Below are positions 7,464 to 13,279 of a stretch of 64,000 nucleotides of DNA, in pieces. The first letter of the stretch is position 1. Each line of letters opens with the position of its first letter. This stretch comes from an uncultured Rubripirellula sp. (GTDB taxonomy: Bacteria; Planctomycetota; Planctomycetia; Pirellulales; Pirellulaceae), in NCBI GenBank assembly GCA_938075415.1, contig CALJHC010000017.1, forward strand, positions 1 to 64,000, given 5' to 3'. The notes beneath the pieces were generated by a model. That model was given only the letters and a program-made list of their open reading frames with translations, was not told the origin of the DNA and did not search any database. The translations under genes were made by a program, and so were the position numbers.

Positions 7464-8267
7464 TCAATCACCAAGCTCACGACTTCGATTCGCCGATGCC
7501 AACACCGCTTGCATCAAGGCTCCCCGAATTCCATTTTTCTCCAATGCAGCAATGGCAGCGATTGTTGTGCCCCCGGGACTGGCAACCGCATCCTTTAGTT
7601 CACCGGGATGCTTTCCGGTTACCTCAACCATTTTTGCAGTCCCCAAGACCGTCTGAGTCGCTAGCTGCATTGCTAAACCACGCGGCAACCCTGCTTGCAC
7701 TCCCCCGTCTGCAAGGGCTTCGATTACCAAACAGATATAAGCTGGGCCTGAACCACTGAGCCCGGTGACAGCGTCCATCTGCGACTCTGTAACTTTCACC
7801 GCGAGGCCAACACAATCAAGCACTTGATGAATCCAAGAAAGATCCTCACTGGTGACTTCAGATCCGCCGCAGAAGGCACTTGCTCCCGCCATCACCAGAC
7901 TCGGCGTGTTTGGCATGACTCTTACCACTCGATCATGCCCAAGCAACCTGGCCAATTGATCAATCGAAATCCCAGCTGCGATCGAAATGACGAGTTTTCC
8001 GGCATAGGACACCCCTGCCTCTGAGGTCACTGCGGAAATGACATTTGGCTTGACGGCTAACAGGATTGCGTCGCTTGAATGAACCGCTTGACTCAGATCA
8101 GCCACGTCCACAGCAGGGTGATGGCTAGCCCACCACTGGCGGCTTGCCTCATTGGGCTCAACCAGGCAAATCTCTTCTTCACCAAGCACACTGGACGCCA
8201 ACACCCCCCCCACCAGCGCACGTCCCATTTGGCCACCACCAATCAATGCTAATCGCTTTGGTTTCAT
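7464..8267 (-). CDS. proC: Pyrroline-5-carboxylate reductase
   Basis: The 267-residue product reduces 1-pyrroline-5-carboxylate to proline with NAD(P)H, the last step of proline synthesis. The N-terminal dinucleotide-binding motif LALIGGGQMGRALVGG, the AVKPNV segment, VVRVMPNTPS, and the C-terminal signature LSGSGPAYICLVIEALADGG with SPGGTTIAAIAALE are all present. Length is normal. The gene is on the minus strand and divergent from argB, with 227 bp between the two starts, so the shared upstream region may serve both proline and arginine synthesis, which branch from glutamate. Confidence 0.95.
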   Translation of the reverse strand: MKPKRLALIGGGQMGRALVGGVLASSVLGEEEICLVEPNEASRQWWASHHPAVDVADLSQAVHSSDAILLAVKPNVISAVTSEAGVSYAGKLVISIAAGISIDQLARLLGHDRVVRVMPNTPSLVMAGASAFCGGSEVTSEDLSWIHQVLDCVGLAVKVTESQMDAVTGLSGSGPAYICLVIEALADGGVQAGLPRGLAMQLATQTVLGTAKMVEVTGKHPGELKDAVASPGGTTIAAIAALEKNGIRGALMQAVLASANRSRELGD

Positions 8268-8494: not shown

Positions 8495-9358
8495 GTGGAT
8501 GAAGCAATCAGCAAGGCAGACAGTCTCATTGAAGCAATGGGATGGATCCGACGTTTTCGCGGTAAAACGACCGTCATCAAGCTGGGTGGCAGTTTGCTTG
8601 ATGACGAGGAAGCGTTGATGCATATCCTGCTGGACGTGATTTTCATGGAATCAGTGGGAATGAAGCCGGTAATTGTTCATGGTGGCGGAAAGGCAATTAA
8701 TCGGGCACTCGCTCAAGCGGGAATTGAACCGAATTTCGTTCGCGGTCGTCGAGTGACAGATCAAGCGACCCTCGAAGTTGTGGAATCAGTCCTGACCGGC
8801 GAACTAAATGTTCAACTCACCGAAGAGATGGAGCGTCTGGGTGGTCGAGCTATGAACCTGTCGTTTCGCACGACGAATGTTTTGTTCGGTAAACGGCACG
8901 AAACAGAGGACGGGGAGGACATTGGATTTGTTGGGGAGGTGACCCGAGTCGACCGAAGCGTGATTGAGGGACTTGCCTACACAGACCAAGTTCCAGTGAT
9001 CCCATCCATGTGCGAAGGGGACGACGGGCAACATTACAATGTTAATGCTGATACGGCGGCGATGGCTGTTGCTCAGTCCCTCGGTGCCGAAAAACTGGTC
9101 TTTCTCTCAGACGTTAACGGGGTTCGCAAAGACAAAGATGATCCCTCGACGATCCTCCACACGCTAACTGCGAATGAAGCAAAACAATTAATTCAAGATG
9201 GAGTGATTGCGGCGGGGATGATCCCCAAAGTCGAAGCGTGTCTTGAAACCCTTGGTAGGGGTGTGCGTAAAGTCCACATCATCGACGGACGAATTCGCCA
9301 CTCGCTGCTTCTTGAAATCTTCACGACCAGTGGCGTCGGTACCGAAATCAATCAGTAA
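8495..9358 (+). CDS. argB: Acetylglutamate kinase
   Basis: The 287-residue enzyme phosphorylates N-acetylglutamate, the second step of arginine synthesis. Visible marks are [13 protein letters not shown] (nucleotide site), [27 protein letters not shown], the substrate segment [12 protein letters not shown] and the C-terminal [16 protein letters not shown]-like stretch (here [11 protein letters not shown]). The start is GTG at 8495, chosen because GGAG at 8483-8486 lies 8 nt upstream; the ATG at 8499 is out of frame. It opens the argB - argD-like - argF row. Confidence 0.95.
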
Positions 9359-9447: not shown

Positions 9448-11412
9448 ATGAATCAGCATGACGATTCTGACATATCAGAAGATGATCAATTGGACGGCGT
9501 CGGTGCAGAACCTTCCCAATCGCAACGACCAATCGATGTACCCGATCAAGAGAAGATTGTTGACCATAACGATCCAACCAACAGAGATAACGCAACTAAC
9601 AGCGAAGTGATAGAGGAAGAAAACCAACATTGGGAAGAAGAACAGTTGGATGACATCGAGCAAGAGGAAGCTGAAGAAGAAGAACAGGAATGGGAAGAGG
9701 AAGAAGAACAGCAAGAAGAAGAGCTAGGTGACAACGAGCAAGAGGAAGCTGAAGAGGAAGAACAGGAATGGGAAGACGAAGAAGAACAGCAAGAAGAAGA
9801 GCCAGGTGACACCGAGCAAGAGGAAGCTGAAGAAGAACAAGAATGGGAAGACGAAGAAGAACAGCAAGAAGAAGAGCTAGGTGACAACGAGCAAGAGGAA
9901 GCTGAAGAGGAAGAACAGGAATGGGAAGACGAAGAAGAACAGCAAGAAGAAGAGCTAGGTGACAACGAGCAAGAGGAAGCTGAAGAGGAAGAACAAGAAT
10001 GGGAAGACGAAGAAGAACAGCAAGAAGAAGAGCTAGGTGACAACGAGCAAGAGGAAGCTGAAGAAGAAGAATGGGAAGACGAAGAAGCTGAAGAAGAAGA
10101 ACAGGGCTCGGAGCAAGTAGAAGAGCAGGACGAAGAACCGTCGCAAGGTAGCCTTCCGAAAACGGCTGAGCCGGAGAAACTATCATCGCAGCAACCGACC
10201 CAAATCCTGCCATTCTCAGCGATTGAGATAGCTGATGGGACGCTCCCTCTGGGAATGCTTCGAAAAGACGAAAAGGATACGATCTTCCTTGATACTTTGG
10301 CCGGACGTTGCTCTAGCTTGGGACTTTCGCAGGACCGTTTTCAGGAATCCATTGCGAACCTTGGTGAACAGATGACTTCCGACTCAGCAGTATGGATGAC
10401 GCGGGATGAACCAGCGAATCACCCCGAGAAAACCAAGGGAAAACTTAGTCAGCAACTTCGACAATCGCTGAGACCTTTTCTTGACAACTCCCCCGGTCTT
10501 TTTGACGATCTCATTCACTTGAGTCCTTCGGCTGACTCGGCAATCGACACAGCGATTTCGATGGCAAGACGACTCAAGGAAGATTCCTGTTATCAGACCA
10601 TCGCATTTGTGGGCAGCGATCATGGCCGAACGGGAATGTGCCGTTCGGCGAGCGGCGTTCCTAAATTACACGATGGATTCGGTCCGATGATGGCAGGATT
10701 CACTCATCTACCGATGGGTGATCTCAAAGCGTTCAATTCAACTCTCAATGAACACACAGCTTGCGTACTCATTTCCCCAGTCAATCTACTCGATGCCGCC
10801 ATTCCCTTTGATCCAAACTTCTTGCTTCGAGTTCGAGAGCAATGCGACAGCCTTGGCATCCCTCTCCTGATCGACGAAACACAACTCGTCTTTGGCGCAA
10901 CGGGCCGACCCTGCACTTTTCAAACGTTGGCTGAAATCCATGCAGACCTGACCATTATCTCCGCAGGTTTGTTCAATGGACTGCCGGGAGGTCTTATCCT
11001 GGGTGGATCACAATTTACGGATCAGCTTGTCGATAATGCTGACGATCTACCGATCCATGCCGGGATTCTTCGATCAACCCTTCGCGACTTGAATAGTAAC
11101 AACTTGATCAATCCGTGGCCGGAAGACGTCCATCCAATCGCGGTCATCATTGCTGAAGCGATCAGCGGCTACGAATTCATACGCGACATCAATGCGACAG
11201 GACTAACCATCGGCATTGAGACAGATATTGAGTCTTCTCGAATTGAGTACATTGCCAAACAGCATGGTGTACGTCTTCGGGTTGCTGGGGATACCGCCGT
11301 CTGCCTTCAACCCCCGTTACAAATTAGTGAAATTGAACAGGAAGCTCTCGTCGAGAGACTCAATTGCACAATGGAATCCTTGGAACGAGAATTTTCCGAT
11401 GCATCCCTCTAG
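9448..11412 (+). CDS. ArgD-like pseudo-aminotransferase with acidic repeat domain
   Basis: The 654-residue product sits exactly where argD (acetylornithine aminotransferase) lies in arg clusters. Residues 1-50 are polar. Residues about 50-235 are dominated by Glu, and about 71-216 consist of five full and one partial 26-residue repeats (15 Glu and one Trp per unit). Residues about 250-654 match class-III aminotransferases: GSDHGRTGMCRSASGVPKLH, ACVLISPV, and LLIDETQLVFGATG, whose Asp (about 476) normally binds the PLP ring nitrogen. The catalytic Lys of 'LAKGLGGG' is Ala (about 506) in ISAGLFNGLPGG, and the GAEANE segment has become SADSAID. So PLP chemistry is unlikely. AGGA lies about 9 nt before the ATG. 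A scaffolding or regulatory role beside ArgB and ArgF is inference. A sequencing or assembly artefact cannot explain the motif losses. Confidence 0.8.
   Translation: MNQHDDSDISEDDQLDGVGAEPSQSQRPIDVPDQEKIVDHNDPTNRDNATNSEVIEEENQHWEEEQLDDIEQEEAEEEEQEWEEEEEQQEEELGDNEQEEAEEEEQEWEDEEEQQEEEPGDTEQEEAEEEQEWEDEEEQQEEELGDNEQEEAEEEEQEWEDEEEQQEEELGDNEQEEAEEEEQEWEDEEEQQEEELGDNEQEEAEEEEWEDEEAEEEEQGSEQVEEQDEEPSQGSLPKTAEPEKLSSQQPTQILPFSAIEIADGTLPLGMLRKDEKDTIFLDTLAGRCSSLGLSQDRFQESIANLGEQMTSDSAVWMTRDEPANHPEKTKGKLSQQLRQSLRPFLDNSPGLFDDLIHLSPSADSAIDTAISMARRLKEDSCYQTIAFVGSDHGRTGMCRSASGVPKLHDGFGPMMAGFTHLPMGDLKAFNSTLNEHTACVLISPVNLLDAAIPFDPNFLLRVREQCDSLGIPLLIDETQLVFGATGRPCTFQTLAEIHADLTIISAGLFNGLPGGLILGGSQFTDQLVDNADDLPIHAGILRSTLRDLNSNNLINPWPEDVHPIAVIIAEAISGYEFIRDINATGLTIGIETDIESSRIEYIAKQHGVRLRVAGDTAVCLQPPLQISEIEQEALVERLNCTMESLEREFSDASL
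9658..10095 (+). repeat. In-frame 78-bp tandem repeat array
   Basis: Units begin at 9658, 9736, 9814, 9889, 9967 and 10045. Spacing is 78 bp, except 75 bp between the third and fourth, where one Glu codon is missing. The last unit is truncated and runs into further Glu codons. Units are nearly identical at DNA level, including synonymous positions, which points to recent expansion or homogenisation. Confidence 0.95.
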
Positions 11413-11454: not shown

Positions 11455-12399
11455 ATGCAACATCTACTGAGCCTTTTCGATTTATCAACTAAAGACCTAG
11501 AGGGAATTCTAGCAACGGCTACTTTCCTCAAAACTCGTCTCAATCGGGGTGAACGTCCACCTGTGCTTGAGCGAAGAGTCATTGCGCTATTGTTTGAAAA
11601 ACCAAGCCTTCGAACCCGCGTCAGCTTCGAAACAGGAATGGCGCAACTCGGTGGCACCAGCCTGTTCCTTGGTGAAGACGTAGGCTGGGGAAAACGTGAA
11701 TCTCCGGCTGACTTCACTCATGTCCTCGGGCAATTTGTGGATGCGGTTGTCTGCCGCACCAAAAAACATGAACGGGTGACTCAAATCGCGAAGTTCGACG
11801 CCGTGCCCGTCATAAATGGACTTACTGATCTTTGCCATCCCTGCCAAGCATTGGCTGATGTGATCACGATTCAAGAGTCATTAGGAAGCGTCGCAGGAAA
11901 ACACCTGACCTTTGTTGGCGATGGTAATAACGTCGCCGGGTCACTGGCCCTGATTTGCGCGATGCTTAAGATGCGTTTTACACTTGCGTGCCCAAATGAA
12001 TATCGACTTAATCAAGATTGGGTTGCAAAGATCTACCAACAGTATCCTCAGGCAATGATCGAGGAAACTTCCGATGTAAAAAAGGCGGTCGGTGACGCGG
12101 ATGCGATCTACACCGATGTCTGGACAAGCATGGGGCAGGAGACCGAGTCGGCAATTCGGAAACAGGCTTTCGCAGATTATCAGGTCAACGCAAATCTGAT
12201 GTCGATGGCACCAAGTCACGCTCGGGTTCTTCATTGTTTGCCAGCAGTACGAGGTGAGGAGATTACTGACGAGGTAATCGACAGCAACCAAAGTGATGTT
12301 ATCGTTCAAGCTGGAAACCGCATGCATGCTCAAAAAGGGCTTCTTGCATGGATACTCAATCGAGACTGGGTCACAGACAATGTCGCCGCCGAATCGTGA
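11455..12399 (+). CDS. argF: Ornithine carbamoyltransferase
   Basis: The 314-residue product condenses ornithine and carbamoyl phosphate to citrulline in arginine synthesis. The carbamoyl-phosphate motif is SLRTR (normally STRTR) in [24 protein letters not shown], the [11 protein letters not shown] segment, the [10 protein letters not shown] ornithine loop and the catalytic [11 protein letters not shown] are all seen. Length is typical. It begins 42 bp after the argD-like gene, so the two are likely cotranscribed. Confidence 0.95.
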
Positions 12400-12571: not shown

Positions 12572-13279
12572 ATGCCTGCGCCCGACGAAATCCGTGAAGT
12601 TGAAATTCAGCGTGGCTATCTAGAATCCAATCCAGCGAGCGTCCTGTATCGCTGCGGGAAAACCATTGTTCTTTGCACCGCGTCAATAGAAGACTCGGTA
12701 CCACCTTGGATGGCAGGTCAGGGAAAAGGTTGGGTCACCGCCGAGTACAACATGCTGCCGGGAAGCACGTCGCCGCGAAAACGTCGAGATCGTGGAGCAA
12801 AAATTGATGGACGAACCACAGAAATCCAACGGTTAATCGGCCGCAGCCTTCGTTCAATCATCGATCTTGAAGCCCTTGGCGAGCACATGATCACGGTGGA
12901 CTGCGATGTCTTGCAAGCCGATGGTGGCACAAGAACCGCATCGATCACAGGTGGTTTCATCGCCTTAGCCGATGCCATCACACAAATCAATCCGGAAGCA
13001 ACCATCGGAAATGGGCCGTTACGTGATTCCGTCGCCGCCATCAGCGTTGGACTCATTGATGGCGATGTAAAACTTGATCTCGACTACATCCTCGACTCAA
13101 ACGCCGATGTTGATATGAATGTCATTATGACCGGCAAGGGTCGATTCGTTGAACTCCAAGGCACGGGAGAAGAGGCCACGTTTGATGATGAACAACTGCA
13201 GGAGATGCTAAGGTTGGCAAAGATTGGAATTCGTCAATTAACGGACTTACAAATGCAAGCCCTCAAGAACAACTGCTGA
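12572..13279 (+). CDS. rph: Ribonuclease PH
   Basis: The 235-residue product is a phosphorolytic 3'-5' exoribonuclease that trims tRNA 3' ends and works as a hexameric ring. Diagnostic stretches are TIVLCTASIEDSVPPW, GWVTAEYNMLPGST, RKRRDRGAKIDGRTTEIQRLIGRSLR, and the catalytic DCDVLQADGGTRTASITGG. The final PVCDLDY-like acidic site reads KLDLDYILDSNADVDMN. Length is normal. It follows argF after 172 bp and is closed by a strong hairpin. Confidence 0.95.
   Translation: MPAPDEIREVEIQRGYLESNPASVLYRCGKTIVLCTASIEDSVPPWMAGQGKGWVTAEYNMLPGSTSPRKRRDRGAKIDGRTTEIQRLIGRSLRSIIDLEALGEHMITVDCDVLQADGGTRTASITGGFIALADAITQINPEATIGNGPLRDSVAAISVGLIDGDVKLDLDYILDSNADVDMNVIMTGKGRFVELQGTGEEATFDDEQLQEMLRLAKIGIRQLTDLQMQALKNNC

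Follow-up and report, generated by a model that had tools for sequence, protein, structure and literature searches.

The window, a stretch of 64,000 nucleotides from an uncultured Rubripirellula sp., carries an arginine gene cluster on its forward strand: argB (acetylglutamate kinase, 8495–9358; TIGR00761, 224 bits, cut-off 151), an open reading frame (ORF) of 654 amino acids at exactly 9448–11412 and argF (ornithine carbamoyltransferase, 11455–12399; TIGR00658, 336 bits, cut-off 281). The ORF is separated from argB by 89 bp and from argF by 42 bp, and the profile matches of both neighbours bear out an earlier note on this DNA, which had placed it where argD is expected. Two further genes flank the cluster and are often found at the same places in relatives, i.e. 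rph downstream (RNase PH, 12572–13279, forward strand; TIGR01966, 329 bits, above cut-off) and a divergent proC upstream (pyrroline-5-carboxylate reductase, 7464–8267, reverse strand; TIGR00112, 283 bits, above cut-off). A scan for promoters and terminators gave no excess over shuffled sequence.

The ORF encodes an ArgD-derived pseudoenzyme in which an acidic tail is followed by a Lys-less domain with a class-III aminotransferase fold (residues 253–654; 10204–11409, forward strand). Pfam Aminotran_3 matches residues 345–639 with 96.7 bits (cut-off 30.5), which confirms the class-III frame claimed beforehand. Among NCBIfam models, those for acetylornithine transaminases score best, yet all stay far below their cut-offs; for the ArgD model TIGR00707 the score is 114.3 bits against a curated cut-off of 410.05, a strict value that was passed in only 1 of 38 genomes of the Pirellulaceae sample. 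An AlphaFold2 prediction for this domain, built on an alignment of 17 sequences, has a pLDDT of 82.6 and a pTM of 0.84, and its top PDB matches in Foldseek are ArgD structures (TM 0.73–0.76, rmsd 5.6–7.4 Å in the top ten). The protein therefore resembles ArgD (TIGR00707; PDB 2pb0/2pb2, 4jev, 3nx3 and 2ord) in fold, by both sequence and model, and in its place between argB and argF; it also has the HGRT motif and the Asp that contacts N1 of pyridoxal phosphate (PLP). Unlike ArgD, it has no catalytic Lys, carries Asp at the phosphate site and at the equivalent of Phe138, and has lost the first Glu of the EPIQGEGG motif.

These residues were compared across the 28 Lys-less members, the window among them, and 24 ArgD rows (22 distinct), with AstC (N-succinylornithine aminotransferase) as the reference for numbering, since its PLP contacts and the role of its Arg141 in binding the substrate carboxylate are described in excerpts of PMC3590144. 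The PLP-Lys column holds Lys in all 24 ArgD rows and Ala (21), Gly (4), Ser (2) or Glu (1) in the Lys-less group; in the window it is Ala506 (codon GCA, 10963–10965), as the earlier note had read it. The columns here are gapless, which rules out a Lys shifted to a neighbouring position. Within the group, no conserved Lys stands in register and no orthologue retains it (0 of 28), so that a sequencing error is also ruled out as the cause of the loss. The PLP-N1 Asp, equivalent to Asp223, is kept throughout the group (Asp476, 10873–10875; 28/28), again as claimed.

The remainder of the PLP site is altered. In the window, the segment corresponding to GAEANE is indeed broken, with Gly replaced by Ala362, Ala/Thr by Asp363 and Asn by Ile366. 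The PLP-phosphate site of ArgD (Gly105/Ala106 equivalents, assigned by motif and not by spacing) is not preserved, being Ala362/Asp363; Asp363 (10534–10536), taken as the equivalent of AstC Ala106, is Asp in 23 of 28 members. In AstC, the backbone of Gly105/Ala106 holds the PLP phosphate (PMC3590144); an Asp at the Ala106 equivalent would therefore add charge rather than remove a contact. Asp391 (10618–10620) replaces the Phe of the FHGRT motif (AstC Phe138), a residue that is Phe in 24/24 ArgD rows and Asp in 24/28 Lys-less members. Within EPIQGEGG, the first Glu is gone in all 28 members and the second (Glu195, by spacing from Asp223 in the ArgD of genome G066) in 27, while the Gln226 equivalent is kept in 15. 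The equivalent of the carboxylate-binding Arg141, Arg394 (10627–10629), is kept in 20 and missing in 8 of the 28. Taken together, this suggests that the protein between argB and argF probably cannot perform the ArgD reaction.

Could it still be an enzyme, with PLP held non-covalently without the Lys or with new chemistry in a remodelled pocket? Invariance of the PLP-N1 Asp and conservation of the pocket in its new state would fit such a reading; the Asp residues at the phosphate site (23/28) and at the Phe138 equivalent (24/28), together with the complete loss of the first EPIQGEGG Glu (28/28), are poor for PLP, and we regard continued catalysis as very unlikely. Relatives of PLP enzymes that lack the Lys are not new as a kind, as SPT1/LCB1 of serine palmitoyltransferase illustrates (PMC6148460). 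None of the titles returned by our search of the open-licence PMC literature dealt with an ArgD without the Lys or with the loss of argD in Pirellulaceae.

To collect members, we searched 100 family genomes and scanned named genomes, which gave 28 distinct ones: the window itself, 15 more from the sampled family genomes and 12 more from the 16 named Planctomycetota loci, of which the other four match sampled contigs in length and were counted as the same. They include Rubripirellula, Rhodopirellula (R. maiorica SM1), strains K23_9 and CA13, and other Planctomycetota/Planctomycetaceae. The other 16 of the 32 named-genome loci belong to Rhizobium and Oscillospiraceae, and the seven of these that were placed in the tree are all Lys-bearing ArgD rows. 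Gene order around the pseudoenzyme is constant: argF is the next gene downstream in all 27 members with a contig long enough to include it (that of L106 ends before it), and argB is the next gene upstream in 25 of 25 (the contigs of L110, L118 and L119 start inside the gene). Locus states, read in 80 of the 100 family genomes, comprise (i) the canonical argB-argD-argF order in 44 genomes, as far as contigs reach; (ii) the argB-pseudoenzyme-argF order in 16; and (iii) an empty state with argB adjoining argF in nine (G086, G036, G010, G074, G059, G051, G027, G067 and G047); 11 of the 80 fall in no class, and the last 20 genomes lie outside this count.

Selection on the gene is evident. For the domain or open frame, dN/dS in the four pairs with dS below 1 is 0.083 (G011/G075), 0.097 (L110/L121), 0.099 (L118/L120) and 0.127 (L067/L114), and in three pairs with dS above 1 it is 0.085–0.111; the pair formed by the window and L106 is saturated. 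Neighbouring genes in the four low-dS pairs give 0.028–0.092. The pseudoenzyme is thus under purifying selection, mostly less constrained than its neighbours. An enzyme fold that lacks an essential catalytic residue and is maintained by selection is a pseudoenzyme, and its retention in the arginine cluster, as proposed in the earlier note, is supported by both the purifying selection and the constant gene order. It might be argued that the gene is a decaying relic not yet lost, given that nothing remains between argB and argF in nine genomes and that the divergent copies of G028 and G083 sit on end branches of 0.58 and 1.12 and have open frames of 383 and 336 amino acids. However, the open frame is intact in the members read, dN/dS lies near 0.1 and new residues are fixed across most of the group, which leaves decay scarcely credible.

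Two trees give different histories for the loss of the Lys. In the ArgD tree, all Lys-less rows fall on one side of one branch (support 100/99). In the ArgB+ArgF tree, the G028/G083 pair groups with the Lys-bearing G066 and G006 (96/81 and 97/91), which would imply that the Lys was lost twice. Such groupings are rejected on the ArgD tree (p-AU 0.0076 and 0.0049), although long branches are in play there. The trees therefore disagree, the former suggesting one loss and the latter two. Across 64 genomes, the ArgB+ArgF tree needs five changes between canonical and non-canonical states.

We then consider the pocket in the main group of 26 members, from which G028 and G083 are excluded. The commonest residues are Asp363 (22 members), Asp391 (24), His392 (25), Arg394 (20), Ser443 (22), Asp476 (26), Glu477 (24) and Ala506 (20), and four of the 12 pocket columns are variable or mixed. 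Jointly, the 12 columns are more conserved than random column sets (a fraction of 0.0028 of 20,000 sets is as high), with the limit that the columns were hand-picked from motif-rich, probably buried positions and the random sets are not matched for burial. In a core of 20 members the fraction is 0.0016 and Asp363, Asp391, His392, Arg394, Asp476 and Glu477 are each found in 20/20; this core carries less weight because it was chosen after the site table had been seen and omits the lineages without the Arg394 equivalent, which makes its Arg count circular. The fixation of new charged residues suggests that the old PLP pocket has not merely decayed and may accommodate a new ligand. Because the Arg at the carboxylate position survives in most members and three acids now occupy the place of PLP, our guess is that this ligand would be a cationic arginine-pathway amino acid.

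The acidic tail of the window's protein contains a Glu-rich tandem repeat (9635–10071, forward strand) with a 78-bp unit (26 amino acids), 5.6 copies and a 93% match, flanked on both sides by acidic sequence that reaches about 10140. On the minus strand opposite the acidic repeats, two long open frames are found at 9546–10213 (a Ser-rich one of 165 and a Leu-rich one of 205 amino acids), which resemble mirrored Glu repeats more than genes. Counting a tail as strongly acidic where a 60-residue window exceeds one-half Asp/Glu, and measuring 25 of the 28 members (three frames are cut by contig ends), we find a strongly acidic N-terminal tail in 11, none in 12 and a moderately acidic C-terminal tail in two. 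The latter two (L078 and L081, of genomes G091 and G045) have their tail at the C-terminal and not the N-terminal end, an apparent separate gain; L118 and L119, both cut by contig ends and outside the 25, also show acidic runs. Judged by eye, the repeat units differ among lineages. The tail is therefore a lineage-specific, optional add-on, perhaps a flexible charged tether. The acidic repeats that the earlier note described ahead of the domain are confirmed, as 26-residue units; their standing as part of the core design is not supported, since 12 of 25 relatives have no acidic tail.

The distribution of the tail also bears on the suggestion that the protein is a scaffold only, whose dimer surface and acidic tail would hold together ArgB and ArgF or other enzymes of arginine synthesis while the old pocket stays free of ligand. 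Its constant place between argB and argF would suit a scaffold, as would the strongly acidic N-terminal tail in 11 of 25 relatives and the moderately acidic C-terminal one in two more. However, the tail is missing in the other 12, and a pocket conserved above random column sets (not burial-matched) is not required of a pure scaffold, so that we consider a scaffold alone unlikely. The earlier note had left the choice open between scaffold and regulator; conservation of the pocket columns in their new state, together with purifying selection, favours the regulator, and the acidic domain as a core part of it is not upheld.

If the operon's own protein has probably lost the reaction, the step would have to be performed elsewhere. 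Canonical ArgD was defined by a score of at least 449 bits against the G066 ArgD and is present in 43 of 80 genomes, or 44 when a contig-end fragment in G052 is counted. A search for a separate argD beside the argB-pseudoenzyme-argF order, which the earlier note had proposed, found no canonical ArgD in any of the 16 sampled pseudoenzyme genomes (0/16). In the window's genome, which is 87% complete, the Aminotran_3 search gave five hits: BioA (TIGR00508, 501 bits) and HemL (TIGR00713, 606 bits), both above cut-off, the pseudoenzyme, one weak match below cut-off and a further class-III aminotransferase of 470 amino acids that keeps its PLP residues, here called P0003 (G000:C21:148242-149651; loci L003, L036 and L098). 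A functional ArgD elsewhere in this genome was rejected, BioA, HemL and P0003 being the only other class-III proteins above the Pfam cut-off at that completeness. Since argJ and argC score above cut-off in all 23 genomes checked, an acetylornithine aminotransferase is needed.

P0003 appears to be a suitable candidate for this step. Its relatives, called at E values up to 1e-40, occur in 37 of 80 genomes, i.e. in 31 of 36 without and in 6 of 44 with canonical ArgD (G066, G006, G025, G018, G017 and G043). It is present in 16/16 sampled pseudoenzyme genomes and, without the pseudoenzyme, in all nine empty-state and in six canonical-ArgD genomes. Five genomes have neither P0003 nor canonical ArgD, and four of them are only 72–82% complete. 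Against such a takeover, ArgD matches of at least 277 bits accompany the P0003 relatives in five of the seven genomes found outside the family. A comparison of ArgD loss with P0003 by phylogenetic pairs yielded only four pairs (median p 0.5). In 36 other family genomes there are relatives 44–70% identical to P0003, which usually precede an astA-like gene, and P0003 may deserve a family model of its own. It has competitors for the step: other class-III enzymes in some pseudoenzyme genomes outscore P0003 with TIGR00707, all of them below the cut-off (G046 341, G092 322, G013 288, G077 285, G087 257 and G055 255 bits).

Gene context links P0003 to AstC. PF04958 (AstA) was found in 25 of the 55 genomes searched, 24 of which also have P0003, and in 20 of these 24 an astA-like gene directly follows P0003 on the same strand. 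We call it astA-like because the neighbour in G092, the one tested in NCBIfam, passes TIGR03243 (arginine/ornithine succinyltransferase) and fails the AstA equivalog model. No such gene was found in the window's own genome. P0003 occurs without an astA-like gene in 13 genomes, none of which has canonical ArgD (0/13), and the six genomes with both P0003 and canonical ArgD all have one. Like AstC, P0003 is a class-III enzyme with an adjoining astA-like gene, and the PLP residues, including the Lys, and the Arg141 equivalent are kept in all 30 loci read of the 37. Unlike AstC, it has Ala for the His of FHGRT and Met for the motif Glu (30/30 loci read), and it scores 86.8 bits against an AstC model cut-off of 609.95 (TIGR03246). 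It is also below cut-off in all 25 class-III families listed of 55. Being below the AstC cut-off, it is described here as working like AstC and is not filed as a member. E. coli AstC and ArgD are functionally interchangeable, according to excerpts of PMC3590144. Judging from sequence and context, P0003 probably works like AstC and took over the acetylornithine step.

Some genomes show other arrangements. Three with P0003 and an astA-like gene (G029, G049 and G095) have an argF match of only 35–36% identity, and the first two of them, G029 and G049, also have a weak argB match at the argF place; the arginine pathway may be arranged differently in these three. G031 (G031:C53:65448-66473) has canonical ArgD and an astA-like gene with no P0003 relative, the only such case among the 25 astA-like carriers. 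In G054, G062 and G012, which have no canonical ArgD, another ArgD-like enzyme scores 359–377 bits with TIGR00707, below the cut-off, and possibly represents a different ArgD type.

The joint occurrence of the two proteins raises the question of whether the pseudoenzyme is the inactive partner subunit of a Lys-bearing class-III enzyme such as P0003, by analogy with SPT1/LCB1 and SPT2/LCB2. SPT1/LCB1 is likewise a conserved relative of PLP enzymes without the PLP lysine, and SPT1 and SPT2 are both absolutely required for activity, as stated in excerpts of PMC6148460; the presence of P0003 in all 16 sampled pseudoenzyme genomes would agree with such a pairing. In contrast to that system, the candidate catalytic protein P0003 exists without the pseudoenzyme in nine empty-state and six canonical-ArgD genomes, which makes an obligate partnership less likely, and the two genes lie on different contigs in the window's genome. 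A partner subunit is thus distinctly improbable, although somewhat less so than continued catalysis.

In brief, the protein at 9448–11412 is a real, conserved, ArgD-derived pseudoenzyme, with a replacement candidate identified by context. The likeliest reason for the retention of its gene is that the reaction passed to another transaminase and the inactive protein acquired a regulatory role. We propose the following order of events. The AstC-like P0003, a second class-III aminotransferase, would have been acquired first and, by performing acetylornithine transamination, would have made ArgD dispensable. The dead ArgD would then have lost its Lys and most PLP contacts and stayed in the operon. 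It would have survived because its remodelled pocket, formed by Asp363, Asp391 and Asp476 with the kept Arg394 and His392, binds a pathway metabolite (at a guess, arginine, ornithine or N-acetylornithine) instead of PLP and because the protein, probably co-expressed with ArgB and ArgF, modulates both. For this full explanation, in which the old argD of the operon became a PLP-free pseudoenzyme kept as a regulator after P0003 took its step, we judge the case for and against to be evenly balanced.

We infer that the role of the pseudoenzyme may be that of a PLP-free sensor or regulator of ArgB/ArgF. The more specific version, an amino-acid sensor whose pocket was rebuilt for a cationic amino acid of the arginine pathway and whose state is reported to ArgB and/or ArgF, is a tentative possibility, to which we give slightly more credence than to the scaffold. 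Behind it stand four pocket changes, namely phosphate-site Ala to Asp, the Phe138 equivalent to Asp, EPIQ Glu to Ser and Lys to Ala, and the fact that the equivalents of Arg141, His139, Asp223 and Glu224 are kept in most pseudoenzyme members.

New here are the absence of canonical ArgD where the pseudoenzyme occurs, the candidate replacement P0003, the empty argB-argF loci, the conserved remodelled pocket and the lineage-specific tail. A practical consequence is that naming the middle gene of argB-argF clusters "ArgD" by position alone would mislabel a protein that is probably unable to perform the reaction. More broadly, the change from enzyme to pseudoenzyme can be followed with its stages alive in one bacterial family: (i) ArgD alone; (ii) ArgD with P0003; (iii) pseudo-ArgD with P0003; and (iv) P0003 alone. 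This makes the fate of a pathway enzyme after its replacement directly testable. If the sensor reading is true, a regulator would have been born in place inside the operon, from an enzyme whose job was taken.
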